64,000 nt of DNA from Hufsiella ginkgonis (GCF_009834915.1 NZ_WVHS01000003.1:1-64000); one strand, 5' to 3'. Positions 13,713 through 33,157 are shown, counted from the first letter of the stretch. Numbers and translations: made by a program. Notes: generated from the letters alone by a model not told the origin.

Positions 13713-13775
13713 AAGTTACGTTATACGTGCCCGCATGGCGTGACAGGAAACGTATAACGTATAACCTCAAACGTT
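13713..13775. repeat. Heptad-repeat element, copy A (9 units)
   Basis: The gap after the GntP stop reads in register as nine 7-nt units: AAGTTAC, GTTATAC, GTGCCCG, CATGGCG, TGACAGG, AAACGTA, TAACGTA, TAACCTC, AAACGTT. The two halves are inverted: ACGTTATACGT and ACGTATAACGT are perfect reverse complements. The unit GTTATAC also occurs in copy C at 27819. Confidence 0.7.
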
Positions 13776-13780
13776 TTTAC

Positions 13781-13788
13781 TAGCTTTG
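13781..13788 (+). promoter_or_regulatory. -7 promoter box of lipoprotein gene
   Basis: TAGCTTTG fits the Bacteroidota -7 consensus TAnnTTTG, 6 nt before the ATG at 13795. Transcription would start at or very near the start codon. The -33 element is not obvious. Confidence 0.4.
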
Positions 13789-13794
13789 ACCATC

Positions 13795-14427
13795 ATGAAG
13801 AAAATTTCGTTTTTCATTGCAGCCGCGGCAGCGTCGCTGATGGCGTCGTGTGCCGGCGACGATAAAGGCAAGGTGGTGGCAGAGCAGGTGATTAAAGAGC
13901 CGGCGTTAACGGCGCCTTTCCGGTTTCATAAGGCCATTGAAGTAAAACCGGGACTTACGTTCGACGTGTTAAGCTGGGGGCGTGGCTCCGAATCCAGCGG
14001 TTCGTTCCTTATCCTTCGTTCTGATTCTACCCACCTCGAGTACCGGTCTACGGAAGGAAAGCTCGATGGCCGGGTAGAAGATGCCTGGAACATGGATATG
14101 GATTCTGACGGCAACCCCGAGATCTTTATCCAGTCGAAAGGCGAAGGGGAGGGCTCTTACCTGAACCTGTACGTATACGAATTTAATAATTCCGGCTCGG
14201 CACAACCACTTAAATTCCCGGAGCTGACCGCTGCCACGCGGAAGCTGTACCGCGGGATGGACTCCGTATACGTGAAAGACGGCAAGCTGCGCAGAGATTT
14301 CCCATTATTCGGTGAAAGCGATCCTGCCGGAAAACCCTCAGCAGGAAAGAAGCAGGTAGAATACAGCCTGCGCAACAATACGTTCACCATTAAAGAGGTC
14401 GAAAACGACACTACGCGCAGCAAATAA
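13795..14427 (+). CDS. Hypothetical lipoprotein
   Basis: A 210-residue protein with a lipoprotein signal peptide; the lipobox ends at Cys19 (LMASC). The mature part has no family I recognise. It contains 'FDVLSWGRGSESSGSFLIL' and a central 'DMDSDGNPEIFI' Asp-rich turn resembling VCBS/FG-GAP-like segments, and a basic tail. The start is the ATG at 13795, not the TTG at 13786. It is followed after 11 nt by the prephenate dehydrogenase-like gene, which has a good GGAGG ribosome site. Confidence 0.7.
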   Translation: MKKISFFIAAAAASLMASCAGDDKGKVVAEQVIKEPALTAPFRFHKAIEVKPGLTFDVLSWGRGSESSGSFLILRSDSTHLEYRSTEGKLDGRVEDAWNMDMDSDGNPEIFIQSKGEGEGSYLNLYVYEFNNSGSAQPLKFPELTAATRKLYRGMDSVYVKDGKLRRDFPLFGESDPAGKPSAGKKQVEYSLRNNTFTIKEVENDTTRSK

Positions 14428-14438
14428 CCGGAGGCATC

Positions 14439-15695
14439 ATGAAGATCGGTATTATCGGCCTCGGCGATATGGGCAAACTATATGCCCGCACTTTCAGTAA
14501 AGCAGGTTATGATACCCTGGGATGCGATTTGCCCGGTACGCGTGAGGCGTTGCAGCGGGAATTAGCGCCCGAGGGAATTTCGGTGCTCGAAAACGGCGCC
14601 GAGGTTTCGGCTGCGGCCGACTTCATCATTTATTCGGTAGAGGCCGAAAAGATCGCGGAAGTAGTGGCTGCCAGTGGTCATGCCACCAAAATGGGCGCCA
14701 TTGTGGGCGGACAAACCTCGGTGAAAACCCCCGAGATCGCCGCCTTTGAACGTTATCTCCCGCAACACGCACATATCGTTACCTGCCACTCATTGCACGG
14801 CCCCGCGTTTCCTACCGCGGGGCAGCAACTCATCGTTATCAGGCACCGGGCTACGGACGAAGCTTATGCCGCCGCGCTGGAGGTCTACAAGGCCCTGGGA
14901 TCGAAGGTGGCCGAGATCCCCGATTACCACCAGCACGACCAGATCGTGGCCGATACGCAGGCCCTCACCCACATGGGTTTCGAAAGCATGGGTACCGCCT
15001 GGAAGAACGCCGGTTTTTATCCCTGGGATAATGATTCTTATAATAACGGGGGGATCGATAATGTAAAGATCCTTACCACCCTGCGTATTTTTAGTTACAA
15101 AGCGCACGTATATGCGGGCCTTGCCATCCTAAATCCCTACGCCCGCAAACAGGTCAGGCAATATGCCGTATCAGAGTCAGAGCTCTTTAAAATGATGATC
15201 CGTGAAGACGAAGCCCCTTTCAGGGAACGGATCTATAAAGCACGCGACTTCGTTTTCCACGAAAGCCGCGAGCTGCTGATGCTCGACGACGCCATCATGA
15301 AAACCTATAAGCTTTCCGGTAACACCGGTGCAAGGCGGCCCAACTCCCACCTGAGCCTGCTGGCCATGGTAGACGCCTGGTATCACCTCGGCGTAAACCC
15401 TTATGATAACCTGATCTGCCAGACCCCGCCTTTTCGCCTGAGACTGGGTATTGCCGAATATCTTTTTAAAAACGAGGAATTGCTCGAGGAATCCATACAT
15501 ACGGCATTGTTCGACAAAGGTATTCGCGGCGATGACCTCGAATTTCACTCCGCCGTACGCGAATGGTCGTCTATTATCGGCTATGGTGATATGGAAGGCT
15601 ATAAAGCCCATTTCGAAGCCACTAAGGCGTTTTTCTCCCACCGTTTGCAGGATGGGCTGGCGCAGAGCGGGGAGTTGATCAGCCGGCTGATTTAG
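14439..15695 (+). CDS. Prephenate dehydrogenase, fungal TYR1-like
   Basis: A 418-residue NAD(P)-dependent dehydrogenase. The Rossmann motif GIIGLGDMG is at residues 4-12, followed by DFIIYSVEA (61-69), GAIVGGQTS (86-94), CHSLHGP (116-122) and ADTQALTHMGFESMG (171-185). From memory these, together with 'HVYAGLAILNP' and 'NSHLSLLAMVDAW', match yeast Tyr1 along nearly the whole length, which would make it an NADP-type prephenate dehydrogenase. It would convert prephenate to 4-hydroxyphenylpyruvate in tyrosine synthesis. It differs from the TyrA/chorismate-mutase type usual in Bacteroidota. Size agrees with the fungal family (about 440). Other members of the superfamily are less likely. Confidence 0.83.
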   Translation: MKIGIIGLGDMGKLYARTFSKAGYDTLGCDLPGTREALQRELAPEGISVLENGAEVSAAADFIIYSVEAEKIAEVVAASGHATKMGAIVGGQTSVKTPEIAAFERYLPQHAHIVTCHSLHGPAFPTAGQQLIVIRHRATDEAYAAALEVYKALGSKVAEIPDYHQHDQIVADTQALTHMGFESMGTAWKNAGFYPWDNDSYNNGGIDNVKILTTLRIFSYKAHVYAGLAILNPYARKQVRQYAVSESELFKMMIREDEAPFRERIYKARDFVFHESRELLMLDDAIMKTYKLSGNTGARRPNSHLSLLAMVDAWYHLGVNPYDNLICQTPPFRLRLGIAEYLFKNEELLEESIHTALFDKGIRGDDLEFHSAVREWSSIIGYGDMEGYKAHFEATKAFFSHRLQDGLAQSGELISRLI

Positions 15696-15872
15696 GTTAC
15701 GTAATGTGTTCGACTTTGTACCTTCTCACTCCTGCAAGGGGGATGCGTTCGTCAATCGGGTCATGGGTATAAACATGGGCATTTGCGGTAGATGGAACTA
15801 ACAACGTCCAACTATAAATTCCGGTTATTTTTTCTATCTTAATCCCAACTAAGATCCTCTTACTGCACCGAC
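15696..15872. other. Leader region of ethanolamine operon
   Basis: This 177-nt gap holds an AT-rich stretch ending in CTATCTTAA (around 15832-15842) that partly fits a Bacteroidota -7 box. No cobalamin riboswitch structure or box was recognised, although the downstream lyase needs adenosylcobalamin. Confidence 0.35.
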
Positions 15873-17201
15873 ATGTCCCAGCCCCTTAAACGCGCCCTTA
15901 CCGCCATTCACCTTTGGGCTATTGCGGTAGGCCTGGTGATATCGGGGGAGTATTTCGGGTGGAATTACGGCTGGGATGCGGCCGGCACCGTCGGGTTCCT
16001 GATCGCCACGTTACTGATCACGGTAATGTACGTCACGTTTATTTTCAGCTTCACGGAGCTTACCTCGGCCATTCCGCATGCCGGCGGCCCGTTCGCGTAT
16101 TCGTACCGGGCATGTGGCCCGTTGGGCGGCTTTATCGCCGGGTACGCCACCCTGGTTGAGTTTGTTTTTGCGCCGCCCGCCATCGCGCTTGCATTGGGGA
16201 GCTATGTGCATTTTCTTCACCCGGCGGCACCGGTATTGGCGGTAGCCTTCGGATGCTATGTCCTGTTTATCGTGATCAACCTGCTGGGGGTTAAGGAGTC
16301 GGCCATGTTTTCGCTGGCGGTTACCGTCCTGGCGGTGGCAGAGCTGCTGTTGTTTATGGGTATCGTGGCGCCCGCTTACGAGCACACCAACTTTATGGCC
16401 AATCCTATGCCACATGGCTGGCCGGGCGTATTTGAGGCCCTGCCCTTCGCCATCTGGTTTTATCTGGCCATAGAAGGTGTGGCCATGGTGGCCGAGGAGG
16501 TGAGGGATCCGGCACGCAACATCCCCAGGGGATATTTATGGGGAATGTTTACCCTGGTAGTGCTTGCCATGGGGGTAATGGTGCTTACCGGCGGCATTAC
16601 CGACTGGCGCCGGCTGAGCAGGATCGACTACCCGCTGCCCGAAGCCATCGGCATTGTATTGGGAAAGACCAGCAGCCTGACCAGGCTTTTTGCCGGGATC
16701 GGTCTTTTCGGGCTGATCGCTTCCTTTCATAGTATTATCCTGAGCTATTCGCGCGAGATCTATGCGCTGGCAAGAAGCGGGTACCTTCCCAGGTTCCTGT
16801 CGCAGGTGCATCCCAAAACCCGGGTGCCGCACTGGGCGCTCATTGCCGGCGGCCTGGTGGGCTGTATCTCGCTGCTTACCAATACTACCGGGCAGGTAAT
16901 TATCCTTTCGGCGATGGGAGCTGTGGTGATGTACATTACCAGTATGATCAGCCTGTTCGTGATCCGTAAAAAAGAGCCGGGGCTGCACCGGCCGTTTATC
17001 GCGCCGTTTTATCCGTTGTTCCCGGCCATTGCGTTGGTGCTGTCGGTGATTTCGCTGGCAGCCATCACCTGGTTTAACCCGCGCCTGGCCCTGCTATTCG
17101 TGGCCGGGATGGTATTGATGGGCGGGATCTGTTTCCTGGTGCCTGGTTCGGGGAAGACCCTTAACGGCGCGCACGTACCCGGAACCGGTTCGAACCCCTG
17201 A
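15873..17201 (+). CDS. Ethanolamine permease (APC superfamily)
   Basis: A 442-residue inner-membrane amino acid/polyamine/organocation transporter with about 12 hydrophobic segments. The N-terminal 'GLVISGEYFGWNYGW' and 'FTELTSAIPHAGGPFAYS' regions are characteristic of ethanolamine permeases. It lies 2 nt before eutB, and eutB overlaps eutC, giving a three-gene operon. The permease would import ethanolamine from degraded phosphatidylethanolamine. No shell, EutP, EutQ or EutR genes are present nearby. Confidence 0.92.
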   Translation: MSQPLKRALTAIHLWAIAVGLVISGEYFGWNYGWDAAGTVGFLIATLLITVMYVTFIFSFTELTSAIPHAGGPFAYSYRACGPLGGFIAGYATLVEFVFAPPAIALALGSYVHFLHPAAPVLAVAFGCYVLFIVINLLGVKESAMFSLAVTVLAVAELLLFMGIVAPAYEHTNFMANPMPHGWPGVFEALPFAIWFYLAIEGVAMVAEEVRDPARNIPRGYLWGMFTLVVLAMGVMVLTGGITDWRRLSRIDYPLPEAIGIVLGKTSSLTRLFAGIGLFGLIASFHSIILSYSREIYALARSGYLPRFLSQVHPKTRVPHWALIAGGLVGCISLLTNTTGQVIILSAMGAVVMYITSMISLFVIRKKEPGLHRPFIAPFYPLFPAIALVLSVISLAAITWFNPRLALLFVAGMVLMGGICFLVPGSGKTLNGAHVPGTGSNP

Positions 17202-17203
17202 TC

Positions 17204-18586
17204 ATGGCTTATAAATACAGCATCGGACACCTTACGTATACGTTTAACGACTTAAAGACCCTGCTTGCCCGTGCTACTCCTTTCCGGTCGGGAGATGCGC
17301 TTGCAGGTGTTGCGGCAACTACCTACCAGGAGCATGTAGCCGCACAGATCGCATTGGCGGATGTGCACCTCGACGTATTTCTCCGCGAAGCGCTTGTCCC
17401 TTACGAACAGGATGAAGTAACCCGCCTCATTATCGACTCGCACGATGCGGCGGCTTTCAAACCCATCGGCCATTTTACCGTGGGGCAGTTCCGCGATTGG
17501 CTGCTAAGCGACGCCTGCGATACAGCGGTGCTGAAGTCACTGGCAAACGGGATCACGCCCGAGATGGCCGCCGCAGTATCCAAGCTTATGCGGAACCAGG
17601 AGCTTATCGCGGCAGCAAAAAAATGCGAAGTGCTTACGTCTTTTCGTAATACGATCGGGTTAAGCGGGCGGTTGTCTACCCGGCTGCAGCCCAATCACCC
17701 TACAGACGACCCTGCCGGGATCTCCGCCAGCATTATTGATGGGATCCTGTACGGGAGCGGCGATGCGGTGATCGGTATTAATCCGGCGGGTGACAGCCCC
17801 GCCAACACACGCCGCCTCCTGGAGATGATCGATAATTTCCGGCGGCAGTTTGCCATACCCACGCAATCCTGTGTGCTTTGCCACGTAACCACCACGCTCG
17901 ACCTGATCGAGAAACATGCGCCCGTCGATCTTACTTTTCAATCGATTGCTGGTACCCAAAGCGCCAACGCCAGTTTCGGGATCAGCCTGTCGCTCCTGGA
18001 AGAGGCTTACCAGGCTACATTATCACTTAATCGCGGCACGATCGGCAATAATGTGATGTATTTTGAAACGGGACAGGGAAGTGCGTTATCCGCCAACGCC
18101 CATTACGGCATCGATCAGCAGACGTGCGAAACACGCGCCTATGCGGTGGCCCGCAAATTCAACCCGCTGCTGGTGAACTCGGTAGTGGGTTTTATCGGTC
18201 CTGAATACCTTTACAATGGCAAACAGATCATCCGCGCTGCGTTAGAAGACCATTTTTGTGCGAAGCTGCTCGGCCTTCCCATGGGGATGGATGTTTGTTA
18301 TACCAACCATGCCGAAGCCGACCAGGACGACATGGATACGCTGATCACGCTTCTCGGAGTATCCGGCTGTACTTTTATTATGGGCGTGCCCGGCGCAGAC
18401 GATGTGATGCTCAACTACCAGTCGACGTCATTTCACGACGCCCTCTACCTGCGCAGGACGCTTGGCTTGCGTCCCGCCCCCGAGTTTGAGGCCTGGCTGG
18501 TACAGCAGGGAATTATGGACAGGCAAGGTAACCAGCTGCCGGATGCCGGGACCTATACACGTTTGTTGGGAGGGATTGGTCAATGA
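17204..18586 (+). CDS. eutB: Ethanolamine ammonia-lyase large subunit
   Basis: A 460-residue protein, close to the usual length of EutB (about 453). Family segments include 'GEDALAG-like' text in the N-terminal part (GDALAGVAAT), 'LSTRLQPNHPTDDP', 'NPAGDSPANTRRLLE', 'FQSIAGTQSANASFG' and 'YFETGQGSALSANAH', which form the TIM-barrel active site. With EutC and adenosylcobalamin it splits ethanolamine to acetaldehyde and ammonia. It starts 2 nt after the permease stop, and its end overlaps eutC by 4 nt (ATGA). Confidence 0.96.
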   Translation: MAYKYSIGHLTYTFNDLKTLLARATPFRSGDALAGVAATTYQEHVAAQIALADVHLDVFLREALVPYEQDEVTRLIIDSHDAAAFKPIGHFTVGQFRDWLLSDACDTAVLKSLANGITPEMAAAVSKLMRNQELIAAAKKCEVLTSFRNTIGLSGRLSTRLQPNHPTDDPAGISASIIDGILYGSGDAVIGINPAGDSPANTRRLLEMIDNFRRQFAIPTQSCVLCHVTTTLDLIEKHAPVDLTFQSIAGTQSANASFGISLSLLEEAYQATLSLNRGTIGNNVMYFETGQGSALSANAHYGIDQQTCETRAYAVARKFNPLLVNSVVGFIGPEYLYNGKQIIRAALEDHFCAKLLGLPMGMDVCYTNHAEADQDDMDTLITLLGVSGCTFIMGVPGADDVMLNYQSTSFHDALYLRRTLGLRPAPEFEAWLVQQGIMDRQGNQLPDAGTYTRLLGGIGQ

Positions 18587-19353
18587 GCGGTGAAGAAAAG
18601 AACAGGCATCCTTACATCGTCAGCGATCATACCGCGGCGCTGAAACAATTTACGCGTGCCAGGATCGCCCTGGGGCGCACGGGCACTTCGGTACCCCATA
18701 AAGAAGCGCTCGCATTTAAGCTGGCGCATGCCGCTGCGCGTGATGCGGTATTTTCTATGCTCGACGTAAACGCGCTTCACGATGAATTAAAGCCGGCAGG
18801 TCTGCCGGTAATGCACCTGAAAAGCAAGGCTGCCGACCGCGACCAATACCTGCAGCGACCCGACCTGGGGAGAGAGCCCGATGAGCGCTCCGTCGCCCTG
18901 GTTAAAGCTTATGGATGTGATAGCTGTGACGTATGCATCATCCTGGCTGATGGTTTATCTTCGGAAGCCGTGAACCGGCATGCACCAGCGTTGGTGCGTC
19001 TGTTGGTAAACAGGCTGGCGCAGGCCGGGTTTACACTTGGCCCATTGATAATTGCCGAACAGGCCAGGGTTGCGTTTGCTGATCCTGTAGGGCAATTACT
19101 GGGGGCGGGGCTAAGCCTCATATTAATCGGTGAACGGCCCGGGCTCAGTTCGCCGCAAAGCATGGGCGCCTATATTACCTACCGGCCGATGCGCGGGCTT
19201 ACCGATGAGGGCAGGAACTGCGTGTCGAATATTCATCCCGCCGGACTTTCTATCGGCCAGGCGGCCGAAAAGATCGCCTACCTGGTACGGGAATCGCTGC
19301 GGCGCAAAGTATCCGGCATCGCCCTGAAAGACGAAACGGGATTGCTGCCTTAG
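18583..19353 (+). CDS. eutC: Ethanolamine ammonia-lyase small subunit
   Basis: A 256-residue EutC, slightly shorter than the E. coli protein (about 295), mostly for lack of an N-terminal extension. Recognisable segments are 'ARIALGRTGTSVPHKEALAFKLAHAAARDAV' near the start, 'LSSEAVNRHAP' in the middle and 'IGERPGLSSPQSMGAY' in the cobalamin-binding half. It forms the EutBC lyase with the preceding gene. Its stop overlaps the convergent lipoprotein gene by 4 nt (TTAG). Confidence 0.95.
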   Translation: MSGEEKNRHPYIVSDHTAALKQFTRARIALGRTGTSVPHKEALAFKLAHAAARDAVFSMLDVNALHDELKPAGLPVMHLKSKAADRDQYLQRPDLGREPDERSVALVKAYGCDSCDVCIILADGLSSEAVNRHAPALVRLLVNRLAQAGFTLGPLIIAEQARVAFADPVGQLLGAGLSLILIGERPGLSSPQSMGAYITYRPMRGLTDEGRNCVSNIHPAGLSIGQAAEKIAYLVRESLRRKVSGIALKDETGLLP

Positions 19354-19937
19354 TCCTTCGGTTTTACCTTGGTCTTGCCGTCTTCGGTTTTGATCTTCAC
19401 TTCGTCGGTTTTTACCTTGCTGTCTTCACCGTCAACTTTCTTTTTATAGTCGCCGTCTTTTTCTTTGGATTTATCACCGTCGGTTTTTAGCTTATAGTCG
19501 CCTTCTTTTACTTTCATTTTGTCGCCGTCGATCTTTATTTTGGTGTCGCCGTCTTTGATCTTGATTTTGTCGCCATCCACCTTCACCTTCGATTCGTCGA
19601 GGATCCACGTACCTGCATCAGACCGTACCACCGCGTTGTTCACCACCACGCCGGTTTTGTAGATCGTATCGCCGGAGTTGTCTATGTACAGCTCCACGGG
19701 TATACGGGCGATGCTGTCCATGGCATAACCTGTTTCCGGGTCTTTTACGATGTAAACCTGTTTTCCCGTATTGAGATCGGTATAAGAGCCGGCGGTGATC
19801 TGCGGCTCGTCTGACCCTGTAACCGCTTCTTCCGTTAGTACCGTATCGGTGTCAGCGTCTTTGTGCTCTTTGCTGTTGCAGCCGCTCAGCACGCCTGCCG
19901 TGAGCGCGGTGCCGATTAAAAAATGTATTGTCTTCAT
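19350..19937 (-). CDS. Lipoprotein with 16-residue Lys/Asp tandem repeats
   Basis: A 195-residue lipoprotein (lipobox Cys20, VLSGC). After a globular part (about 45-115) containing a repeated 'DLNTGKQVYIVKDPETGYA' strand, residues 117-195 consist of about 4.5 copies of a 16-residue unit. Each unit alternates KxKxDGDKx and KxKDGDx segments, for example KVKVDGDKI then KIKDGDT. Strict alternation of charged and small residues suggests a beta-strand or extended surface structure. I know no function. The ATG at 19937 is chosen for the signal peptide. Confidence 0.72.
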   Translation of the reverse strand: MKTIHFLIGTALTAGVLSGCNSKEHKDADTDTVLTEEAVTGSDEPQITAGSYTDLNTGKQVYIVKDPETGYAMDSIARIPVELYIDNSGDTIYKTGVVVNNAVVRSDAGTWILDESKVKVDGDKIKIKDGDTKIKIDGDKMKVKEGDYKLKTDGDKSKEKDGDYKKKVDGEDSKVKTDEVKIKTEDGKTKVKPKD

Positions 19938-20079
19938 AATAGGTGTTTTGTTATTTCGCAACAACAGATTTCATCAAAAGGTTTTATATTGCGCTTCGCT
20001 GCCGCGATACATCTGTACCTGTGAAATGTTTAAAAAATGAAAATGAAGTTTGTAACCTATTAAACAGGGCTATACAAGT

Positions 20080-20934
20080 ATGTTGGTATCAGAGAGACCA
20101 GGGCAATCCACCATTCTGATCATTGATCTTAATAAACCTAAACTGACCTCTGCCAGGGTCAAAACGAAGCACATTACCAGGGCAAAATATTACGTCACCT
20201 GTATCGTGGTTTCCGTGTTGAGTATGTTAGCGGCTACGGCCTTTTTATCACAGCGCAACCGCGAGAACGAAGAAAAACTGCGGCAGATGAACGTGCAGTT
20301 ATCGGCATTAAAGGCGCAGATCCCCGAACGGGCCGACACTTCGAAGCTCCGCGGATATATCGAGCACATCGAGAAAAAACTGAGCAGTATCAATAAAACG
20401 TTATTGAAAAGAGGCGTGCGCGGATTTTCGAAAGATGCAGCAGGCGGGGGCAGCGAAGTATTGTCGAGCCTGCCGCTGGTGGAGAATTATGCGCTGATGG
20501 ACCAGTATGTAAGCCGGGTGCTTTCAGGCATCTCGAATGTGCCGCTGGGGTATCCCGGGCAGCCGTCCGTGACCTCGCGTTTCGGTTTCAGGAACGATCC
20601 TTATGATTTTTCGAGAACGGAGTTTCATCCCGGCCTCGATTTCAGGGGCAACCAGGGCGATGCCGTTAAAAGCACCGCCGGAGGCAAAGTAGTGCGCGCA
20701 GGATGGTTTAGCGGCTACGGAAAGTGTGTGCGGGTAAAACACATCGCGGGCTACGAAACATTGTACGGACACCTGTCGAAGATAGTGGTAAGGGAAGGGG
20801 AGACCATTACGGCCGGTCAGCTGATCGGTAAAGTGGGATCTACCGGCCGCTCAACAGGAGCTCACCTGCATTACGAGGTGAGGCTGCATAATAAGCTCAT
20901 CAACCCGGTGAAATTTCTGAACCTTGTAAATTGA
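20080..20934 (+). CDS. M23 (LytM-type) peptidase, membrane-anchored
   Basis: A 284-residue protein with a cytoplasmic N-terminus, one membrane segment (about 38-56), a coiled-coil (about 60-108) and a C-terminal M23 metallopeptidase domain (about 160-282). Zinc and catalytic residues are visible: His183 and Asp187 (HPGLD), His231 (YGHL), and His262/His264 (AHLHYE). Such enzymes cleave peptidoglycan cross-links in the periplasm or regulate other hydrolases. In Bacteroidota this arrangement is commonly followed by a bactofilin gene; here only a remnant of one follows directly. Confidence 0.92.
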   Translation: MLVSERPGQSTILIIDLNKPKLTSARVKTKHITRAKYYVTCIVVSVLSMLAATAFLSQRNRENEEKLRQMNVQLSALKAQIPERADTSKLRGYIEHIEKKLSSINKTLLKRGVRGFSKDAAGGGSEVLSSLPLVENYALMDQYVSRVLSGISNVPLGYPGQPSVTSRFGFRNDPYDFSRTEFHPGLDFRGNQGDAVKSTAGGKVVRAGWFSGYGKCVRVKHIAGYETLYGHLSKIVVREGETITAGQLIGKVGSTGRSTGAHLHYEVRLHNKLINPVKFLNLVN

Positions 20935-21123
20935 CGTCGGGAAACATCCGCGCCAAAGCAGTGATCGTGCACGGCTCGTTACCGGGATATCCAGGCGGCG
21001 CACATCACCGTTAAGCGTTCGGGCAAAGTAAAAGGCGGGATCATAACGGGCAACCTGGTGGTTGAAAACGGTGCGGTTTACAATGGAAATCTATCGATGA
21101 GCGAACCTGCCGCGGCCAGGTAA
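20931..21123 (+). pseudogene. Bactofilin remnant, truncated and frameshifted
   Basis: Directly after the M23 stop, the frame GNIRAKAVIVHGSLPG (from 20940) and, one frame further, DIQAAHITVKRSGKVKGGI followed by GNLVVENGAVYNGNLSM to a TAA at 21121-21123, together match the C-terminal half of a bactofilin beta-helix. A single base appears to be lost near 20986-20990, and the N-terminal half is absent. No usable start codon precedes it. I infer a decayed bactofilin, because M23-bactofilin pairs are standard in this phylum. Confidence 0.7.
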
Positions 21124-21164
21124 AACTTGCTATAAATATTTCTTGAAAAATAACAAGCTCACTA

Positions 21165-21195
21165 TTTGACAATTAATTAATGTTTTCTATCTTTG
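21165..21195 (+). promoter_or_regulatory. Promoter of ribosomal operon (rplC)
   Basis: TTTG (21165-21168) and TATCTTTG (21188-21195) are separated by 19 nt, an exact match to the Bacteroidota housekeeping promoter (TTTG-N19-TAnnTTTG). A leader of about 70 nt precedes rplC. rpsJ is not upstream, so the operon starts at rplC here. Confidence 0.85.
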
Positions 21196-21269
21196 CCGTC
21201 CCTTTCGGGGGGTTAAAATGTCTTGAACGAAGCCCTACTGCTTCGATGGGCACAAAAGATTAAAAGAAA

Positions 21270-25293: not shown

Positions 25294-25716
25294 ATGTTAC
25301 AGCCAAAGAGAACGAAGTTCAGGAAGATGCAAAAGGGCAAAATGAAAGGCCTCGCCGGTCGCGGTGCGGAGCTTGCCTTTGGTTCTTTCGGAATAAAATC
25401 ATTAGAACCGGCGTGGATCACCAGCAGGCAGATTGAAGCTGCCCGTATTGCCGTAACGCGCTTTATGAAACGTGAAGGCCAGGTGTGGATCCGCATTTTT
25501 CCTGACAAACCGGTAACCAAAAAACCTGCCGAAGTACGTATGGGTAAAGGTAAAGGTGCCCCTGAGTACTGGGTAGCTGTTGTACGCCCGGGCAGGATGA
25601 TCTTTGAAGCTGAAGGTGTGCCTCTGGAAGTTGCCAAGGAAGCATTACGTTTAGCCGCTCAAAAATTACCGGTACAAACCAAATTCGTTATGCGTAGGGA
25701 TTACGTAGAAGCATAA
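25294..25716 (+). CDS. rplP: 50S ribosomal protein L16 (uL16)
   Basis: A 140-residue uL16 with '[16 protein letters not shown]' at the N-terminus and '[19 protein letters not shown]' near the middle, including the Arg-rich loop that contacts A-site tRNA. Spacing to rpmC is 57 nt, widened by a heptad-repeat element. Confidence 0.97.
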
Positions 25717-25726
25717 AAAGGCCGGT

Positions 25727-25768
25727 GGCTGATAGCTGATAGCTGGCAGCCAATAGCCGAAAGCTAGA
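25727..25768. repeat. Heptad-repeat element, copy B (6 units)
   Basis: Between rplP and rpmC six 7-nt units lie in register: GGCTGAT, AGCTGAT, AGCTGGC, AGCCAAT, AGCCGAA, AGCTAGA. The first base and the AGC core are nearly invariant. The last unit ends only 5 nt before the rpmC ATG, so it replaces the usual ribosome-binding region. Confidence 0.72.
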
Positions 25769-25773
25769 AAAAA

Positions 25774-26001
25774 ATGAAAAACTCAGAGATTTTAGGGCTA
25801 TCAACAGAGGAGATCGTGGCTCGCATTGGCGAAGAAAAGGCCAGCCTCACTAAATTAAAATTTGCACATACCGTTTCTGCGATTGAAAATCCTACCCGGA
25901 TTGCCAAAGTAAGAAAAGATATAGCACGTTTAAACACAGAATTGACCAAGCGCAAAGCGGAAGCGAAAGCATCTGCGGAGTCAGGGTCCGCTTCTGAATA
26001 A
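25774..26001 (+). CDS. rpmC: 50S ribosomal protein L29 (uL29)
   Basis: A 75-residue uL29 with the two-helix core 'LSTEEIVARIGEEKASLTKLKF' and 'IENPTRIAKVRKDIARLNTEL', plus a short Ala/Ser tail. It lies near the exit tunnel beside L23. Its ribosome site is only 'AGAAAAAA', downstream of the heptad element. Confidence 0.94.
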   Translation: MKNSEILGLSTEEIVARIGEEKASLTKLKFAHTVSAIENPTRIAKVRKDIARLNTELTKRKAEAKASAESGSASE

Positions 26002-26013
26002 CAATAAGTCGAA

Positions 26014-26268
26014 ATGGAAAGACAATTAAGAAAGACCCGTACCGGGTTGGTAGTAAGCAACAAAATGGATAAATCCATCGTAGTTGCCGTGGAAAGGAAA
26101 GTAAAACACCCGATCTATGGTAAGTTCGTAAAGAAAACTACCAAATTTAAGGCTCATGACGAAGAAAACACATGTGGTGTCGGAGATACCGTGTTAATTA
26201 TGGAAACTCGTCCGCTGAGTAAGACAAAAAACTGGCGTTTGGTTCAAATTTTAGAGAGGGCTAAGTAA
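26014..26268 (+). CDS. rpsQ: 30S ribosomal protein S17 (uS17)
   Basis: An 84-residue uS17 with OB-fold segments '[20 protein letters not shown]' and '[19 protein letters not shown]'. It binds 16S rRNA helices early in assembly. It is followed by rplN after 1 nt. Confidence 0.97.
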
Positions 26269-26269
26269 C

Positions 26270-26638
26270 ATGGTACAGCAGGAATCAAGACTCACTGTTG
26301 CAGACAACAGCGGAGCCAAAGAAGTTTTAGTGATCCGGGTGCTGGGCGGCACAGGCAAGCGTTATGCTTCCCTGGGCGACAAAGTAGTGGTTACCGTAAA
26401 AAGCGCGATCCCTTCCGGGAACGTGAAAAAAGGGACCGTCTCTAAGGCCGTGATCGTACGCACCAGTAAAGAAGTAAGACGTAAAGACGGTTCCTATATC
26501 CGTTTCGACGACAATGCGGCTGTATTGCTGAATGCCCAGGATGAGCCGCGCGGTACACGTATCTTCGGCCCGGTAGCCAGGGAGCTGCGTGAAAAACAGT
26601 TTATGAAAATTGTATCATTAGCACCGGAGGTACTGTAA
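26270..26638 (+). CDS. rplN: 50S ribosomal protein L14 (uL14)
   Basis: A 122-residue uL14 of standard length; '[21 protein letters not shown]' at the start and '[15 protein letters not shown]' with '[14 protein letters not shown]' near the end are typical. It contacts the small subunit in the inter-subunit bridge. It is followed after 1 nt by rplX. Confidence 0.98.
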
Positions 26639-26639
26639 A

Positions 26640-26978
26640 ATGAATAAAGAGACTAAAGTAGCCAAACTGAAGGTACGCAAAGGCGACCTGGTGAAGATCA
26701 TCGCCGGCGACTCAAAAGGCAAAGAAGGCAAGATCCTGGAAGTAATTACAAAAACCAACAGGGCAGTGGTAGAAGGTGCTAACATGGTATCTAAACACAC
26801 TAAGCCAAATGCGGCCAACCCTAATGGCGGCATCGTTAAGAAAGAGGCTTCATTGCATATTTCTAACCTGATGGTGATCGACCCTAAATCCGGTAAGCCT
26901 TCACGTGTAGGAATTAAAAAGGACGATAAAGGTAAACTGGTTCGTGTAGCTAAAAAATCCGGGGAGGAAATTAAGTAA
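26640..26978 (+). CDS. rplX: 50S ribosomal protein L24 (uL24)
   Basis: A 112-residue uL24 with the KOW motif '[20 protein letters not shown]' (about 14-33), an assembly initiator on 23S rRNA. Its stop overlaps the rplE start by 1 nt (TAATG). Confidence 0.97.
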
Positions 26979-27544
26979 TGACTTATATACCAAGATTAAA
27001 AACAAAATACAAAGACGAGATCCGCACCGCGCTTAAGGACAAGTTCCAGTATAAGAGCGTAATGCAGGTCCCGAAATTGGAAAAGATTGCCATTAACCAG
27101 GGTGTTGGTGCCGCAACTACAGATAAAAAACTGATCGAGCATGCGATCACCGAGCTGACCACCATTACCGGTCAGCAGGCGATCTCTACCCGTTCGAAGA
27201 AAGATATCTCGAACTTCAAGTTACGTAAAGGTATGCCGATCGGTGTACGTGTTACGCTTCGCGATAATACCATGTACGAGTTCCTCGACAGGCTGATCGC
27301 TGTGGCGCTTCCGCGTATCCGTGATTTCAAAGGCATCAATGACAAAGGATTCGACGGCCGTGGTAACTATACACTGGGTATTACAGAGCAGATCATTTTC
27401 CCTGAAATTAACATCGATAAGATTAACAAGATCATGGGAATGGATATTACCTTTGTAACCTCCGCGAAATCGGATGTAGAAGCACTGGAGTTATTAAAGC
27501 AATTTGGTTTGCCTTTTAAGAATCAAAATAACAACAATCAATAA
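26978..27544 (+). CDS. rplE: 50S ribosomal protein L5 (uL5)
   Basis: A 188-residue uL5; '[18 protein letters not shown]' and '[17 protein letters not shown]' mark the family. It binds 5S rRNA and the P-site tRNA. The stop overlaps the rpsN start (TAATG). Confidence 0.97.
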
Positions 27545-27813
27545 TGGCTAAAGAAGGTGTAAAAGCGCGTGAAGTAAAGCGTGCACGGTTAGTTGCCAAA
27601 TATGCTGAAAAGAGAGCAGCGCTTAAAGCTGCAGGCGAGTTTGAAGAGCTGGACAAGTTGCCAAAGAACTCTTCGCCCGTACGTCTCCACAATCGGTGCA
27701 AATTAACCGGCCGTCCGAGAGGATATATGCGTCAGTTCGGTATTTCACGTGTAACATTCCGTGAAATGGCGCTTGCGGGCAAGATCCCGGGAGTGAAGAA
27801 GGCGAGCTGGTAA
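27544..27813 (+). CDS. rpsN: 30S ribosomal protein S14 (uS14), zinc-free type
   Basis: An 89-residue uS14 of the long form without the CxxC zinc motif (only one Cys, in '[13 protein letters not shown]'). The C-terminal '[23 protein letters not shown]' is standard. It is followed by a 169-nt gap filled by a heptad-repeat element before rpsH. Confidence 0.96.
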
Positions 27814-27818
27814 TAAAA

Positions 27819-27916
27819 GTTATACGTTTAACGTTCGACGTTGTGCGTTCCCGGTCCGGCGCTTAGCAAGGCGCCTGGGGGAATGTACAACGTCAAACGC
27901 ATAACGTCCAACCCCA
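27819..27916. repeat. Heptad-repeat element, copy C (14 units)
   Basis: Between rpsN and rpsH a 98-nt stretch divides exactly into fourteen 7-nt units. The left half has GTTATAC, GTTTAAC, GTTCGAC, GTTGTGC, GTTCCCG; the right half has AATGTAC, AACGTCA, AACGCAT, AACGTCC, AACCCCA. The GTTnnnC units on the left and GTnnAAC words on the right are reverse complements, giving a long imperfect hairpin with a GGCGC/GCGCC core at the centre. Confidence 0.8.
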
Positions 27917-27982
27917 ATGAATTAACCGATGGAAGGTCGTCCCGATGGACGGGAAGGAAACCACCATCACAGATCAAATATA

Positions 27983-28381
27983 ATGAATACAGATCCAATA
28001 GCAGATTATCTTACCCGGGTAAGGAATGCGATCAAGGCGAACCACAGGGTGGTTGAGATCCCCGCTTCTAACCTGAAGAAGGAGATCACCAAAGTACTTT
28101 TCGACAAAGGGTACATCACAAACTACAAGTTTGAAGATTCAACCGTGCAGGGCACGATCAAGATCGCGTTGAAATATCACCCGATCACCAAGATCCCCGC
28201 GATCCGCACCATCACCCGCGTAAGCAGCCCGGGTTTAAGGCAATATGCCGGAATGGACAACATGCCGCGCGTACTCAACGGATTAGGCATCGCCATCCTC
28301 TCTACTTCTAAAGGTGTTATGACCGATAAAGAAGCCAGGAGCCTCAATATCGGCGGTGAAGTTTTATGTTACGTTTATTAA
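27983..28381 (+). CDS. rpsH: 30S ribosomal protein S8 (uS8)
   Basis: A 132-residue uS8. The ATG at 27983 gives the family start 'MNTDPIADYLTRVRNAIKANH'; an upstream in-frame ATG at 27929 would add an unusual His-rich extension and is rejected. 'LSTSKGVMTDKEA' near the C-terminus is the rRNA-binding signature. In E. coli S8 regulates the spc operon. Confidence 0.96.
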   Translation: MNTDPIADYLTRVRNAIKANHRVVEIPASNLKKEITKVLFDKGYITNYKFEDSTVQGTIKIALKYHPITKIPAIRTITRVSSPGLRQYAGMDNMPRVLNGLGIAILSTSKGVMTDKEARSLNIGGEVLCYVY

Positions 28382-28398
28382 CGATAGGAGATTAAGCG

Positions 28399-28956
28399 AT
28401 GTCAAGAATAGGAAAAGCGCCAATTGCGATCCCGGCAGGAGTTACCCTCTCTGTATCAGATAATAACCTGGTAACTGTAAAAGGACCAAAAGGAGAATTA
28501 ACCCAGCAGGTTGATTCGGATATAACCGTATCACAGGAAGATACCAATATTATCGTTAAAAGGCCATCTGAGCAGAAACGCCACAAAGCGCTTCACGGTC
28601 TGTACCGCTCACTGATCAATAACATGGTTAAAGGTGTAACCGAAGGGTACAAAACTACGCAGGAACTGGTAGGTGTAGGTTACCGTGCTACAAACACAGG
28701 TAATACACTTGACCTTGTTTTGGGCTACTCTCACCATTATGTTTTCGAGTTACCAAAAGAGATCAAAGTAACCACCACCGCGGATAAGGGTAAGAACCCG
28801 ACCATCATTTTAGAAAGCATTGACAAACAGTTGTTGGGCCAGGTAGCTGCAAAGATCCGCTCACTTCGTACACCTGAACCATATAAAGGAAAAGGTATCA
28901 AGTTCGCGGGTGAAGTATTGAGAAGAAAAGCAGGTAAATCAGCATCTAAAAAATAA
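28399..28956 (+). CDS. rplF: 50S ribosomal protein L6 (uL6)
   Basis: A 185-residue uL6 with '[15 protein letters not shown]' at the start and the C-terminal '[20 protein letters not shown]', the conserved rRNA-binding segment near the sarcin-ricin loop. Full length, followed by rplR after 5 nt. Confidence 0.97.
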
Positions 28957-28961
28957 TCATC

Positions 28962-29315
28962 ATGGCAGGAACAAAATCATCCCGCAGAGAGCGGATTAAA
29001 AAAGGGATCAGGAAAGTAATTTCTGGTTCAGCTGAGCGCCCCCGTTTATCAGTATACAGGAGCAACAAAGGCATTTATGCCCAGATCATTGATGATACCA
29101 CCGGAAAAACACTGGTTTCTACTTCTTCCCTGGCAAAAGATTTTTCTGTAAAAGGAACAAAGATCGAGCAGTCGAAAGAAGTCGGTAAAACAGTAGCTGA
29201 GAAAGCGATCGCAGCAGGGATCAGCAAAGTGGTCTTCGACAGGAATGGTTATTTATACCATGGCCGCGTGAAATCACTCGCAGAAGGTGCCCGTGAAGGC
29301 GGTTTAGATTTTTAA
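28962..29315 (+). CDS. rplR: 50S ribosomal protein L18 (uL18)
   Basis: A 117-residue uL18; '[20 protein letters not shown]' and '[25 protein letters not shown]' are diagnostic. It carries 5S rRNA to the ribosome together with L5. Confidence 0.97.
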
Positions 29316-29338
29316 TCACAGCTGAAAAAAATAAGAAA

Positions 29339-29857
29339 ATGTCAACAATCAATATAAAGAGAGTAAAATCAAGCGAGATCGAATTAAAAGACCGCCTGGT
29401 AAGTATTCAGCGTGTGGCTAAGGTTACCAAAGGGGGACGTACATTCAGTTTCTCGGCAATCGTGGTAGTAGGCGACGAGAATGGCGTAGTAGGTTACGGC
29501 CTGGGCAAAGCCAAAGAAGTAACGGAGGCGATTGCTAAAGGTGTGGACGACGCGAAAAAGAACCTGGTAAAGGTTCCTGTGATCAACGGTACCATCCCGC
29601 ACGAGCAGATCGGCAAATTTTCCGGTGGTTTCGTGTTCATCAAACCTGCAGCAAACGGTACCGGTGTTATCGCCGGTGGCGCGATGCGTGCAGTGCTTGA
29701 AAGTGCCGGCGTACATAACGTACTCGCTAAATCAAAAGGATCATCGAACCCGCATAACGTGGTTAAAGCAACTGTATCGGCATTATCGCAATTGCGCGAT
29801 GCATATACAGTAGCGCAGCACCGTGGTGTGGAATTGGGTAAAGTTTTTAACGGATAA
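29339..29857 (+). CDS. rpsE: 30S ribosomal protein S5 (uS5)
   Basis: A 172-residue uS5 with '[23 protein letters not shown]' and '[20 protein letters not shown]', the double-stranded RNA-binding domain, and '[23 protein letters not shown]', the C-terminal domain. It lies at the mRNA entry channel. Confidence 0.97.
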
Positions 29858-29861
29858 GACG

Positions 29862-30041
29862 ATGGCTAAGATCAAAGTAACACAGATTAAAAGCGTTATC
29901 GACAGAAGCGAGCGCCAGAAAAAAACCATGCAGGCATTGGGCTTGAATAAGATCAACCAGTCTGTAGAGGTGGAAGCCAGCCCGGCCATTATCGGGATGG
30001 TAAGGAAAGTTAATCATTTAGTGGCAGTAGAAAGTATCTAA
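29862..30041 (+). CDS. rpmD: 50S ribosomal protein L30 (uL30)
   Basis: A 59-residue uL30, start ATG at 29862 giving 'MAKIKVTQIKSVIDRSERQ' and ending in 'RKVNHLVAVESI'. An upstream in-frame GTG (29823) inside rpsE is not needed. It follows rpsE by 4 nt. Confidence 0.95.
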   Translation: MAKIKVTQIKSVIDRSERQKKTMQALGLNKINQSVEVEASPAIIGMVRKVNHLVAVESI

Positions 30042-30043
30042 TC

Positions 30044-30490
30044 ATGAACTTAAGTAACTTAAAACCTGCAGAAGGTTCTACAAAAAACAGGAAACGTATC
30101 GGTCGCGGTACGGGTTCCGGACGGGGTGGTACATCAACACGCGGACATAAAGGTGCCGGTTCACGTTCTGGTAATTCTACCAAGATCGGCTTTGAAGGCG
30201 GTCAGATGCCTTTACAGCGCCGCTTACCTAAGGTAGGTTTCAAAAATATCAACAGGGTAGAGTATGTAGGTGTTAACCTGGATGTGATCCAGGGCCTCGC
30301 TGAGAAATTCAACCTCGAAGCGGTTGATTTCGCCGTATTAAAGGAGCACGGTCTCGTATCGAAAAACGACCTGGTTAAGATCCTCGGAAGAGGCGAACTA
30401 AAAGCTAAACTGGAAGTTAAAGCACATGCTTTTACTGCAACCGCTCAAAAAGCTATCGAAGCAGCTGGTGGTTCTACAGTTAAATTGTAA
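30044..30490 (+). CDS. rplO: 50S ribosomal protein L15 (uL15)
   Basis: A 148-residue uL15 with the Gly/Arg-rich N-terminal arm 'KRIGRGTGSGRGGTSTRGHKGAGSRSG' and 'FEGGQMPLQRRLPKVGF'. It is followed after 3 nt by secY, as in most bacteria. Confidence 0.97.
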   Translation: MNLSNLKPAEGSTKNRKRIGRGTGSGRGGTSTRGHKGAGSRSGNSTKIGFEGGQMPLQRRLPKVGFKNINRVEYVGVNLDVIQGLAEKFNLEAVDFAVLKEHGLVSKNDLVKILGRGELKAKLEVKAHAFTATAQKAIEAAGGSTVKL

Positions 30491-30493
30491 CAG

Positions 30494-31837
30494 ATGAAGA
30501 AACTGATCACAACCTTAACCAACATCTGGAATATTGAGGACCTCAGGGCGCGGATCTTCTTCACACTGATATGTCTCCTGGTTTACCGGGCGGGATCTTA
30601 TATTACCCTTCCAGGTGTTGATGCGAATATCCTCGATCTGAAATCGGCTAAAGAAGCCAGTGGTCTTGTAGGCCTGATCAATATGTTTGCAGGGGGGTCG
30701 TTTTCCCGTGCATCTATCTTCGCCCTTGGCGTGATGCCGTATATCTCGGCATCCATCGTAGTTCAGCTGTTGGGTATCGCTGTCCCTTCTTTCCAGAAAA
30801 TGCAGAAAGAAGGAGAAAGCGGCCGTAAAAAGATCAACCAGATCACTCGTTACCTGACGGTGGCGATCACCCTGCTCCAGGGCGCGGCGTATGTTCGCTC
30901 AGGACAGATCCCCGTCGACGCGAAGATCTTGTCTGAACCGATGTTTACCATCTCTTCGATGTTCGTTCTTTCTGCCGGTACCCTCTTCGTGATGTGGCTG
31001 GGTGAAAAGATCACCGACAGGGGTATCGGTAACGGTATTTCCCTGATCATTATGGTTGGGATCATTGCCCAGCTGCCCCCGGCACTCCTTGGAGAGTTCG
31101 GCTCGAGAATGGCGGGTGAAGGTGCCGGCGGGCCTATTCCGTTCGTACTTGAGATCATCGCTTTGATCGCCGTGGTGATGTTCACTATCCTGATCGTTCA
31201 GGGTGTGAGAAAGATCCCGGTACAATATGCGAAGAAGATCGTTGGTAACAAGCAGTATGGCGGTGTGCGTCAGTATATTCCGTTGAAAGTAAATGCAGCC
31301 GGTGTAATGCCGATCATTTTCGCCCAAGCGATCATGTTCATCCCGACAACATTGGGCAGCATTTTCCCATCTGCACAAGGACCGGTATTGACCTCGCTGA
31401 GCAATTACACGTCGCTTCCGTATAACCTGGTGTTTGCATTCCTGATCATCGCTTTTACCTTTTTCTATACGGCCATTACCGTTAACCCGGTACAGATGTC
31501 TGATGATATGAAGAAGAACGGCGGATTTATCCCGGGTGTAAAGCCAGGAAAGTTCACCGGGGAGTACATCGATTCAGTGATCTCAAAGATCACGTTACCC
31601 GGTTCGGTATTCCTCGCCATCATTGCGATCCTGCCTTCCATGGCGGCCAAAGTTGGAATAAGCAGCCAGTTTGCGCATTTCTTTGGAGGTACTTCGCTAT
31701 TGATCCTGGTGGGTGTTGTGCTGGATACGTTACAGCAGATAGAGAGTCATTTATTAATGCGTCATTATGACGGGCTAATGAAGACTGGCAGGATCAAGGG
31801 ACGTACACCTGTTGCTGCAGGAGTTACGGGTAACTAA
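30494..31837 (+). CDS. secY: Protein translocase subunit SecY
   Basis: A 447-residue inner-membrane channel subunit with ten membrane segments. 'VDANILDLKSAKEASGLVGLINMFAGG' marks the first periplasmic/plug region and 'FFYTAITVNPVQMSDDMKKNGGFIPG' the large cytoplasmic loop that binds SecA and ribosomes. It exports signal-peptide proteins such as the lipoproteins and T9SS cargo in this window. It is followed by map after 3 nt. Confidence 0.97.
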   Translation: MKKLITTLTNIWNIEDLRARIFFTLICLLVYRAGSYITLPGVDANILDLKSAKEASGLVGLINMFAGGSFSRASIFALGVMPYISASIVVQLLGIAVPSFQKMQKEGESGRKKINQITRYLTVAITLLQGAAYVRSGQIPVDAKILSEPMFTISSMFVLSAGTLFVMWLGEKITDRGIGNGISLIIMVGIIAQLPPALLGEFGSRMAGEGAGGPIPFVLEIIALIAVVMFTILIVQGVRKIPVQYAKKIVGNKQYGGVRQYIPLKVNAAGVMPIIFAQAIMFIPTTLGSIFPSAQGPVLTSLSNYTSLPYNLVFAFLIIAFTFFYTAITVNPVQMSDDMKKNGGFIPGVKPGKFTGEYIDSVISKITLPGSVFLAIIAILPSMAAKVGISSQFAHFFGGTSLLILVGVVLDTLQQIESHLLMRHYDGLMKTGRIKGRTPVAAGVTGN

Positions 31838-31840
31838 ACC

Positions 31841-32650
31841 ATGCCTTCGAAGTCAAACATCTATTACAAATCTCCCGAAGAGGTTGAACTAATCAGAGAA
31901 AGCTCCTTACTGGTTTCCAGGACATTGGCCGAAGTGGCTAAGGTGATAGGACCGGGCATAAGGACCATTGAACTTAATACGCTTGCGGAAAGCTTTATCA
32001 GGGATAACGGCGGCGTGCCGGCCTTCCTTAATTATAACGGCTTTCCCTGGTCGCTCTGCATTTCGCTGAATGACCAGGTGGTACATGGCTTTCCCGGCCA
32101 ATATGCACTGAAAGAGGGTGATATCGTTTCCGTAGACTGCGGGGTGATCCTGAACAAGTTTTTCGGTGATTCGGCATATACCTTTCCTATCGGCGAGATT
32201 GACCCGGTTATTGGAAAGTTGCTTAGGGTCACCAAAGAATGCGTAGCCCTGGGCGCCGAGAAAGCGGTGGCGGGAATGCGGCTTGGCGATATTGGACATG
32301 CTGTGCAGGAACATGCAGAAAAGAACGGTTACGGTGTAGTTAAAGAACTTGTTGGGCATGGCGTGGGAGTAAAGCTCCATGAAAGCCCCGAAGTGCCTAA
32401 CTATGGCAAACGCGGTTCAGGCATGCTGCTCGAGGAAGGAATGGTACTTGCGATTGAACCTATGATCAACCAGGGAAGGGCATCGGTGAAGTTCTGGGAT
32501 GATGGCTGGACCGTAAGCACGGTCGATAAAAAGCCGTCGGCGCATTATGAGCATACGGTTGCGGTGAAAAAAGGAAAGTCCGACGTACTCTCTACCTTCG
32601 AATATATCGAAGAAGTATTGGGAAAGCGGACAGCGCCGGAAAATTTATAA
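31841..32650 (+). CDS. map: Methionine aminopeptidase, type I
   Basis: A 269-residue MetAP with the five metal ligands recognisable in context: Asp in 'VSVDCGVI', Asp in 'FFGDSAYTF', His in 'VGHGVGVKLHESPE', Glu in 'VLAIEPMI' and Glu in 'HYEHTVAV'. It removes initiator Met from nascent proteins. It has a short N-terminal addition before 'KSPEEVELIRESS'. It is coupled to secY. Confidence 0.97.
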   Translation: MPSKSNIYYKSPEEVELIRESSLLVSRTLAEVAKVIGPGIRTIELNTLAESFIRDNGGVPAFLNYNGFPWSLCISLNDQVVHGFPGQYALKEGDIVSVDCGVILNKFFGDSAYTFPIGEIDPVIGKLLRVTKECVALGAEKAVAGMRLGDIGHAVQEHAEKNGYGVVKELVGHGVGVKLHESPEVPNYGKRGSGMLLEEGMVLAIEPMINQGRASVKFWDDGWTVSTVDKKPSAHYEHTVAVKKGKSDVLSTFEYIEEVLGKRTAPENL

Positions 32651-32689
32651 AAAAAATCCTGGGAATATAAAATTTCGAAATTTTTTATT

Positions 32690-32697
32690 TAATTTTG
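32690..32697 (+). promoter_or_regulatory. Possible -7 box before infA
   Basis: TAATTTTG fits TAnnTTTG, 46 nt before infA, in an AT-rich 92-nt gap that also holds the palindromic AAATTTCGAAATTT. A -33 TTTG at 19-nt spacing is missing. It may give infA-rpmJ-rpsM an extra internal promoter. Confidence 0.4.
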
Positions 32698-32742
32698 CGT
32701 CCCCGTTTAACAGGGTAAATTAAGTAAAAATCAAGAAAATAT

Positions 32743-32961
32743 ATGGCTAAACAAGCCTCTATTGAACAGGACGGCATCATAAAAGAAGCATTATCAAACG
32801 CGATGTTCCGGGTAGAACTGGAAAACGGTCACGAGATAATTGCACACATTTCAGGTAAGATGCGGATGCACTACATCAAGATCTTGCCTGGGGATAAAGT
32901 TAAATTAGAAATGTCGCCTTACGATTTGTCAAAAGGCAGGATAACTTATAGGTATAAATAA
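32743..32961 (+). CDS. infA: Translation initiation factor IF-1
   Basis: A 72-residue IF-1 with the whole S1-like OB fold: '[41 protein letters not shown]' in the centre. It binds the A site of the 30S subunit during initiation. Standard length. rpmJ starts 1 nt later. Confidence 0.98.
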
Positions 32962-32962
32962 T

Positions 32963-33079
32963 ATGAAAGTTAGAGCATCCATCAAAAAGCGTAGTGCTGA
33001 TTGCAAGATCATTCGCCGTAAGGGAAAACTTTACGTAATTAACAAGAAGAACCCTAAATACAAACAACGTCAGGGATAA
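32963..33079 (+). CDS. rpmJ: 50S ribosomal protein L36 (bL36), zinc-free type
   Basis: A 38-residue protein starting [15 protein letters not shown] and ending KYKQRQG. It has one Cys instead of the CxxC...CxxxxH zinc set, as is typical of Bacteroidota bL36. The start is the ATG 1 nt after the infA stop. Confidence 0.95.
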
Positions 33080-33094
33080 GATAATTCAGATGGA

Positions 33095-33157
33095 CGATTT
33101 TCGGTTTACGGTTTCCAGTATGGCGTAAATCATCAATCGGAAATCGTAAATCGCTAA
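33095..33157. repeat. Heptad-repeat element, copy D (9 units)
   Basis: Between rpmJ and rpsM nine 7-nt units follow in register: CGATTTT, CGGTTTA, CGGTTTC, CAGTATG, GCGTAAA, TCATCAA, TCGGAAA, TCGTAAA, TCGCTAA. Units at the left (CGGTTTA) and right (TCGTAAA) are near reverse complements, forming a dyad about 33125. Confidence 0.75.

Follow-up and report, generated by a model that had tools for sequence, protein, structure and literature searches.

Degenerate heptad hairpins between the genes of Hufsiella ginkgonis keep their architecture, change their words at fixed sites and recur in other lineages and phage contigs

Heptanucleotide repeats of Calothrix go by the name STRR. Such tandem repeats are cited by Rehm et al. 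(2015, PMC4692102), who described intergenic GGGAATC or (GGGANTN)n arrays in Xanthomonas and GGGGA(C/T)T arrays in Nostoc. In Xanthomonas there are 70-75 convergent heptamer pairs per genome, and special interest was given to the G-quadruplexes that they form in vitro; in related species the repeats lie at the same gene pairs with extensive length and sequence variation, and their function is unknown (PMC4692102). Heptamers are also over-represented among bacterial simple sequence repeats, for which polymerase contact length was mentioned as a possible cause (PMC4692102). Additionally, TAACTGA direct repeats are found between genes in Beggiatoaceae, cyanobacteria and five Bacteroidetes (MacGregor 2015, PMC4679880); these are exact and share one orientation, most of them lying immediately before start codons, and related heptamers are rare. 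G-quadruplexes, translational control and polymerase slippage have been the earlier suggestions for bacterial heptamer repeats. Here we analyse the 64 kb at the start of contig C19 from Hufsiella ginkgonis (NZ_WVHS01000003.1:1-64000, hereafter the window; genome of 5.21 Mb in 25 contigs), where an original prediction had recognised degenerate elements with a 7-nt register in four gaps between genes, called A to D. The SecY protein has its nearest relatives in Daejeonella and Paradesertivirga, which places the organism in the family Sphingobacteriaceae.

The general kind of repeat is thus already known, if poorly explained, and the elements described here are of the same kind without G-tracts. 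As in Xanthomonas and Nostoc, they are intergenic, have a 7-nt unit in which some positions are conserved and others vary, show no enrichment of other unit lengths, and form convergent pairs in which the G-richer strand runs inward. Unlike those G-tracted, quadruplex-forming repeats, the CAGT, GTTnnAC, AGC and CGATTT words found here carry no G-tract, and several of them coexist and are exchanged from species to species within a genus. Since these words have no G-tract, G-quadruplex formation cannot be the common cause of the architecture. The TAACTGA repeats are likewise intergenic, and the reverse complement, TCAGTTA, is one unit of the CAGT class and is present in tandem in that class of our genome; however, the elements here are degenerate, mostly have inverted arms, use several words and take no single position relative to genes, and TAACTGA/TCAGTTA is not a word of gaps A-D. 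The original prediction knew of no named family: there is indeed no agreed name or function, but convergent heptamers (PMC4692102) and TAACTGA repeats (PMC4679880) had been described before. For the word types, the fast turnover at fixed sites and the spread to phages, no earlier description was found in the literature outside subscription journals and preprints, and a prior report may exist. We tentatively favour a reading in which these are heptad palindromes kept at intergenic sites, with a core that is probably retained because something reads it and with a role like that of repetitive extragenic palindromes (REP) and bacterial interspersed mosaic elements (BIME), not transposition.

In all four gaps the highest short-lag identity was found at lag 7 (A 0.41, B 0.60, C 0.47, D 0.54). 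When whole gaps were shuffled 5000 times with dinucleotides preserved, no shuffle was as high for B, C or D, and 16 were for gap A (13710-13785; 26 of 1000 when any lag from 4 to 12 was allowed), which confirms the predicted periodicity. All four gaps also fold better as RNA than their shuffles (z-scores of -2.2, -2.5, -7.3 and -3.9 for A to D). The halves had been described as inverted in three copies, and gaps A, C and D are indeed two inverted arms around a centre, gap B being a single array of a self-complementary AGC word. An unbroken division into 9, 6, 14 and 9 units was overstated, because it depends on ends chosen to give lengths divisible by 7, and heptad words are missing from the 20-35 nt at the centres of A, C and D. 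Gap A lies between two open reading frames (ORFs) at 13.7 kb. Its 5' arm (13715-13728, plus strand, GTTAC GTTATAC GT) has the GTTnnAC word and is paired in the fold with the 3' arm (13749-13775, minus strand, AACGTATAACGTATAACCTCAAACGTT), where that word is inverted (pattern match C19:13749-13765:-); the centre (13729-13748, GCCCGCATGGCGTGACAGGA) resembles by eye the TTCCtgTAtGGCGcnnTAcaGGAA centre of the CAGT class. Gap B, between rplP and rpmC (25724-25765), is one AGC-class array, GGTGGCT GATAGCT GATAGCT GGCAGCC AATAGCC GAAAGCT. Gap C, between rpsN and rpsH, has a 5' arm at 27819-27849 (plus strand, GTTATAC GTTTAAC GTTCGAC GTTGTGC GTT), a centre at 27850-27884 that contains an inner hairpin, CCGGCGCTTAGCAAGGCGCC (fold -50.9 kcal/mol, z -7.3), and a 3' arm at 27885-27912 (minus strand, GTACAACGTCAAACGCATAACGTCCAAC; reverse complement GTTGGAC GTTATGC GTTTGAC GTTGTAC). 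The GTTATAC word reported as common to A and C is real. Lastly, gap D, between rpmJ and rpsM, consists of a 5' arm at 33095-33114 (plus strand, CGATTTT CGGTTTA CGGTTT), a centre at 33115-33135 (CCAGTATGGCGTAAATCATCA) whose GTATGGCGT-like core is by eye common with gap A, and a 3' arm at 33136-33153 (minus strand, ATCGGAAATCGTAAATCG), with a related word in gap D of Olivibacter (L102). Rfam covariance models gave no match at gathering score, only sub-threshold chance matches, and a known RNA family was rejected on that ground.

The 7-nt autocorrelation scan that had been proposed as a check was carried out on 2.0 of the 5.2 Mb of the genome, read in 20-kb stretches, with genes called by a dicodon model; the intergenic DNA thus defined amounts to 174 kb. 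It holds 112 lag-7 segments (score 10 or more), far above chance: shuffled DNA gave 2, and the lags 4-6 and 8-13 gave 3-12. The excess over shuffled sequence whose absence was to refute the original prediction is thus present. Coding DNA was self-similar mostly at lags that are multiples of three, and the lag-7 excess was confined to intergenic DNA. Merging gave 75 elements. Furthermore, the pattern GTTNNACGTTNNACGTT matched the genome 50 times and its reversed control 0 times, and CAGTNNTCAGTNNTCAGT matched 206 times against 4 for the control. Survey and pattern counts together bear out a genome-wide family of phase-locked intergenic heptads that often form hairpins. Typically two inverted arms flank a centre of ~7-110 nt, with some single arms and some perfect palindromes, and the word classes are CAGTnnT, AGCYnnn, GTTnnAC, GAATAGn and CGATTTn. 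In the CAGT class (329 units) conservation of the core letters is 0.89-0.99, and the two positions after the core carry 1.6-1.7 bits with C at only 5-8%; GTTnnAC units have a similar profile, and the overall ranges are 0.87-0.99 for core positions and 1.6-1.9 bits with 3-12% C for variable ones. Drift acting on both strands would not produce such a profile.

The arms are also polar. CAGT arms of our genome form 15 inward pairs and 1 outward pair. Among 96 hairpin arms from our lag-7 hairpins and the ribosomal loci of 80 relatives, G outnumbers C in the 5' arm in 84, the exceptions being mostly of the self-complementary AGC class. The same was seen in IMG/VR, where a pattern scan that selected by the CAGT word, and not by orientation, yielded at least 120 stretches. 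Among the matches listed, CAGT arms no more than 120 nt apart form 107 inward pairs and 1 outward pair in 38 contigs, CAGT stands in the 5' arm for 154 of 158 classed arms, and 459 segments have lag 7 compared to 30-33 at lags 6 and 8; a reversed-word control was not used in these contigs, as its pattern overlaps CAGTGGT arrays. The G+C content of 13 examined stretches is 57-70%, which speaks against any close relationship with our genome, and several contigs are phage or prophage, with terminase, portal, tail and tape-measure proteins. Element bases number 918 against 1076 noncoding bases in contig L376 and 821 against 1148 in L383, which means that nearly every gap carries an element. CAGT heptad hairpins were seen in many or nearly all gaps of the GC-rich, phage- or virus-labelled contigs L376, L383, L400, L407, L370, L391, L394 and L399. 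Within the phylum, CAGT arrays are patchy (70 of 248 genomes), and within the family 20 of 121 genomes have GTT arrays.

A neutral satellite would be one source of such arrays: slippage favoured at 7 nt by the length of DNA held in the polymerase, with template switching that homogenises the arms, and no function. The over-representation of heptamers and the polymerase contact proposed for it (PMC4692102) speak for this, as do whole-unit length changes among copies of a mobile subfamily described below, homogenised arms such as AACGTAG x3 in gap D of sister-genus species G382, and exact arrays in the genomes G276, G068 and G125. Nevertheless, slippage would homogenise all seven positions, and here the core is kept while a unit resembles its neighbour hardly more than it resembles units of other loci. 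The probability that neighbouring units are identical is 0.06-0.10, against 0.04-0.11 for units from other loci, which argues that recent slippage is not the source, and the simple slippage origin entertained in the original prediction is not supported in that form. Across the hairpin, facing units agree at 41% of variable positions, compared to a background of 36%; given this low likeness in both directions, neither recent tandem duplication nor copying of one arm from the other accounts for the arms. The satellite also predicts neither the polarity (107:1 among the IMG/VR matches listed) nor the depletion of C at variable positions, and we consider it rather unlikely.

Comparison with 17 species of a sister genus, some of them closely related so that counts are not independent, showed that the elements turn over in place. 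At gaps B, C and D and between rpsD and rpoA the lag-7 identity is 0.57, 0.49, 0.46 and 0.45, against 0.35 for the control gap rpsK-rpsD. The ribosomal gaps had been taken to be normally a few nt; in this family they usually measure 70-200 nt and bear hairpins. Nor are the elements fixed in relatives, as gaps B and D have none in species G322 and gap B measures 25 nt in Paradesertivirga (L093). Inside one element the word is mostly uniform, but it varies from species to species: TAGT in G353, G369 and G347, AAGT in G374, G364, G359, G382 and G297, ACGT in G341, and CAGT in G311 at gap B. Gaps of one species may also differ, with TAGT at B and ACGT at C and D of G353. A word change spans the units together and usually both arms; unlike arms were found in few elements, at gap D of G369 and G374, and in G353 and G382 gap D has a common centre and different arms. 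Numbered from the GT anchor, positions 1-2 have a likeness of 0.70 inside an element and 0.53-0.59 between elements, position 5 shows no difference (0.56 and 0.52), and position 6 is alike inside an arm only (0.46 in the same arm, 0.28 in the opposite arm, 0.35 in other elements). What occupies the orthologous ribosomal gaps of other genera varies: heptad hairpins with other words, hairpins in an 8-nt register, or no element.

Several other features of these gaps were observed. In the sister genus, position 6 at rplP-rpmC and rpmJ-rpsM, with arms named in the direction of transcription, is rich in A in the 5' arm and rich in G in the 3' arm once the latter is reverse-complemented; this arm difference holds for 2 of 3 ribosomal gaps (not rpsN-rpsH), is weak in our own CAGT arms and is absent from other classes. 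Mucilaginibacter rplP-rpmC gaps have 8-nt GTTGnAAn hairpins and not heptads (L098 5201-5321; L104 5233-5373), and in the other Bacteroidota L095, L099, L100, L102, L106, L122 and L149 this gap is occupied by another conserved structure, whose core is GCCGTTACC. Just upstream of rpsH in the window (27917-27983) lies a conserved RNA-like block, ATTAACCGATGGnAGGTC...GGAAACCACCATCA, without an Rfam match, which is also present in L091-L126 and most of the 17 sister-genus species and may be a ribosomal-protein leader of the S8 type. Upstream of rpsD (33946-34024 and orthologous gaps) TTTAAAGCTAAGATTC and TGATACTTTAAAA are conserved around a variable hairpin, again with no Rfam match, and this may be an S4 leader.

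The original prediction also suggested a mobile element, and this is borne out for one subfamily but not supported for the hairpins at large. The AGC-armed subfamily is a miniature inverted-repeat transposable element (MITE) of ~188 nt (about 177-194) with AGC-class heptad arms, the terminal inverted repeat (TIR) GGATCARGCTKAA, 8-bp target site duplications (TSDs; e.g. GTAACAGC, TTCGTACC and AATTAATG) and about 20 copies (an example is G000 C1:57222-57409, with about 20 other places, L213-L233). Its copies have 3, 4 or 5 heptads in one arm and differ in length by exactly one or two units. A parent transposon was not found: among four single TIRs inspected, L303 and L315 had no transposase-like ORF by eye, the other two being inspected as sequence only. 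This subfamily speaks for a reading of the elements as non-autonomous mobile palindromes (REP- or MITE-like), with a transposase acting in trans and heptads as its binding sites, as do a related ~22-nt centre, TTCCtgTAtGGCGcnnTAcaGGAA, that recurs at many unrelated CAGT loci (the innermost unit often being CAGTTCC) and patchy counts between species. However, no flanking repeat of 6 nt or more was detected at any of 22 CAGT, GTT and GAATAG hairpins, so that transposition of the hairpins was rejected; the window's four elements have no detectable TIR or TSD and, unlike a MITE, are retained at orthologous sites; and those sites, the same ribosomal gaps in many species, persist across the genus with words changing in place. 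A search for solitary centres without heptads gave none that was convincing. REPs resemble our elements in being many intergenic palindromes per genome, but they lack heptad arms, and the Y1 transposase (PF01797) of REP-associated tyrosine transposases (RAYT) had no match in our genome, with a control search positive in 5 of 14 genomes; the RAYT/REP reading was rejected for this reason. No RVT_1 reverse transcriptase was found in our genome either, which led us to reject a diversity-generating retroelement, retron or telomerase-like source. We regard mobility as a general explanation as improbable.

The absence of an RVT_1 protein also bears on template-driven end extension, a telomerase-like process that would add G-rich heptads to 3' ends before these are fused head to head. 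It would account for the polarity, the fixed unit length, the same word in both arms and the independent variable positions, but the centres are partly conserved and orthologous sites persist, and we give it hardly any credence. Ordinary transcription terminators or mRNA-stabilising hairpins with incidental repeats fit the strong folds (z down to -7) and the sites within ribosomal operons and between phage structural genes. The 75 elements lie in 52 co-directional, 15 divergent and 8 convergent gaps, which is near the background of all gaps (596, 256 and 146). Convergent gene pairs thus have no surplus of elements (8 of the 75, against 146 of 998 gaps), divergent gaps are occupied near background frequency and, unlike intrinsic terminators, the elements are not enriched at 3' ends. 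Moreover, selection for a hairpin would leave one word in all units, the 7-nt spacing and the polarity unexplained, making this explanation highly improbable.

The reading that we favour, heptad palindromes with a core that is read, would work as follows. The element is an intergenic hairpin. Each arm consists of repeated 7-nt units that have a constrained core and two positions under weak constraint, and the G-richer strand always points inward, 5' to 3'. Elements remain at the same sites for long periods and change there, gaining and losing whole 7-nt units, and the word shifts across units, usually in both arms, so that orthologues keep the architecture and not the sequence. The reader would be a nucleic-acid-binding protein, or else the first-made, G-richer 5' arm would act through its structure before the second arm closes the hairpin, and the role would be that of a REP/BIME-like mRNA or DNA structure between genes. 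Neither drift nor slippage readily yields the strict polarity or the steady depletion of C at variable positions of the 5' arm, and these two features favour a read core. The periodicity, the split into core and variable positions, the polarity, the whole-unit changes, the word turnover at fixed sites and the spread to other lineages and phage contigs are shown by the data, whereas selection on the core, a reader and any effect on neighbouring genes are inferred. Three RRM_1 proteins of our genome are conceivable readers, candidates by presence alone (the RRM_1 control search was positive only in a cyanobacterium and a Bacteroides). Four points weigh on the other side. No reader protein or phenotype is on record for heptad elements; a genome with several words would require more than one reader, or a single loose one; CAGT units at distance 2 have a variable-position identity of 0.19 against a background of 0.05, so that some slippage or exchange does occur in some arms; and exact, slippage-like CAGT heptamer arrays (CAGTCCT, CAGTTAT, CAGTAAT) exist in other Bacteroidota, namely G276 (several contigs), G068 and G125.

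It is possible, though somewhat doubtful, that all these repeats form one widespread element class across bacterial lineages and phages, with a 7-nt register, a core with two free positions and the G-richer strand inward, acted on by a conserved, unrecognised machinery, and that the Xanthomonas G-quadruplex repeats are a special case of it. Finding the architecture with non-quadruplex words, with units unlike their neighbours and with a polarity of 107:1 among the IMG/VR matches listed makes a long-standing puzzle testable. In addition, ribosomal-operon gaps throughout a bacterial family are filled with such elements, and altered spacing or folding there could influence how essential genes are expressed.

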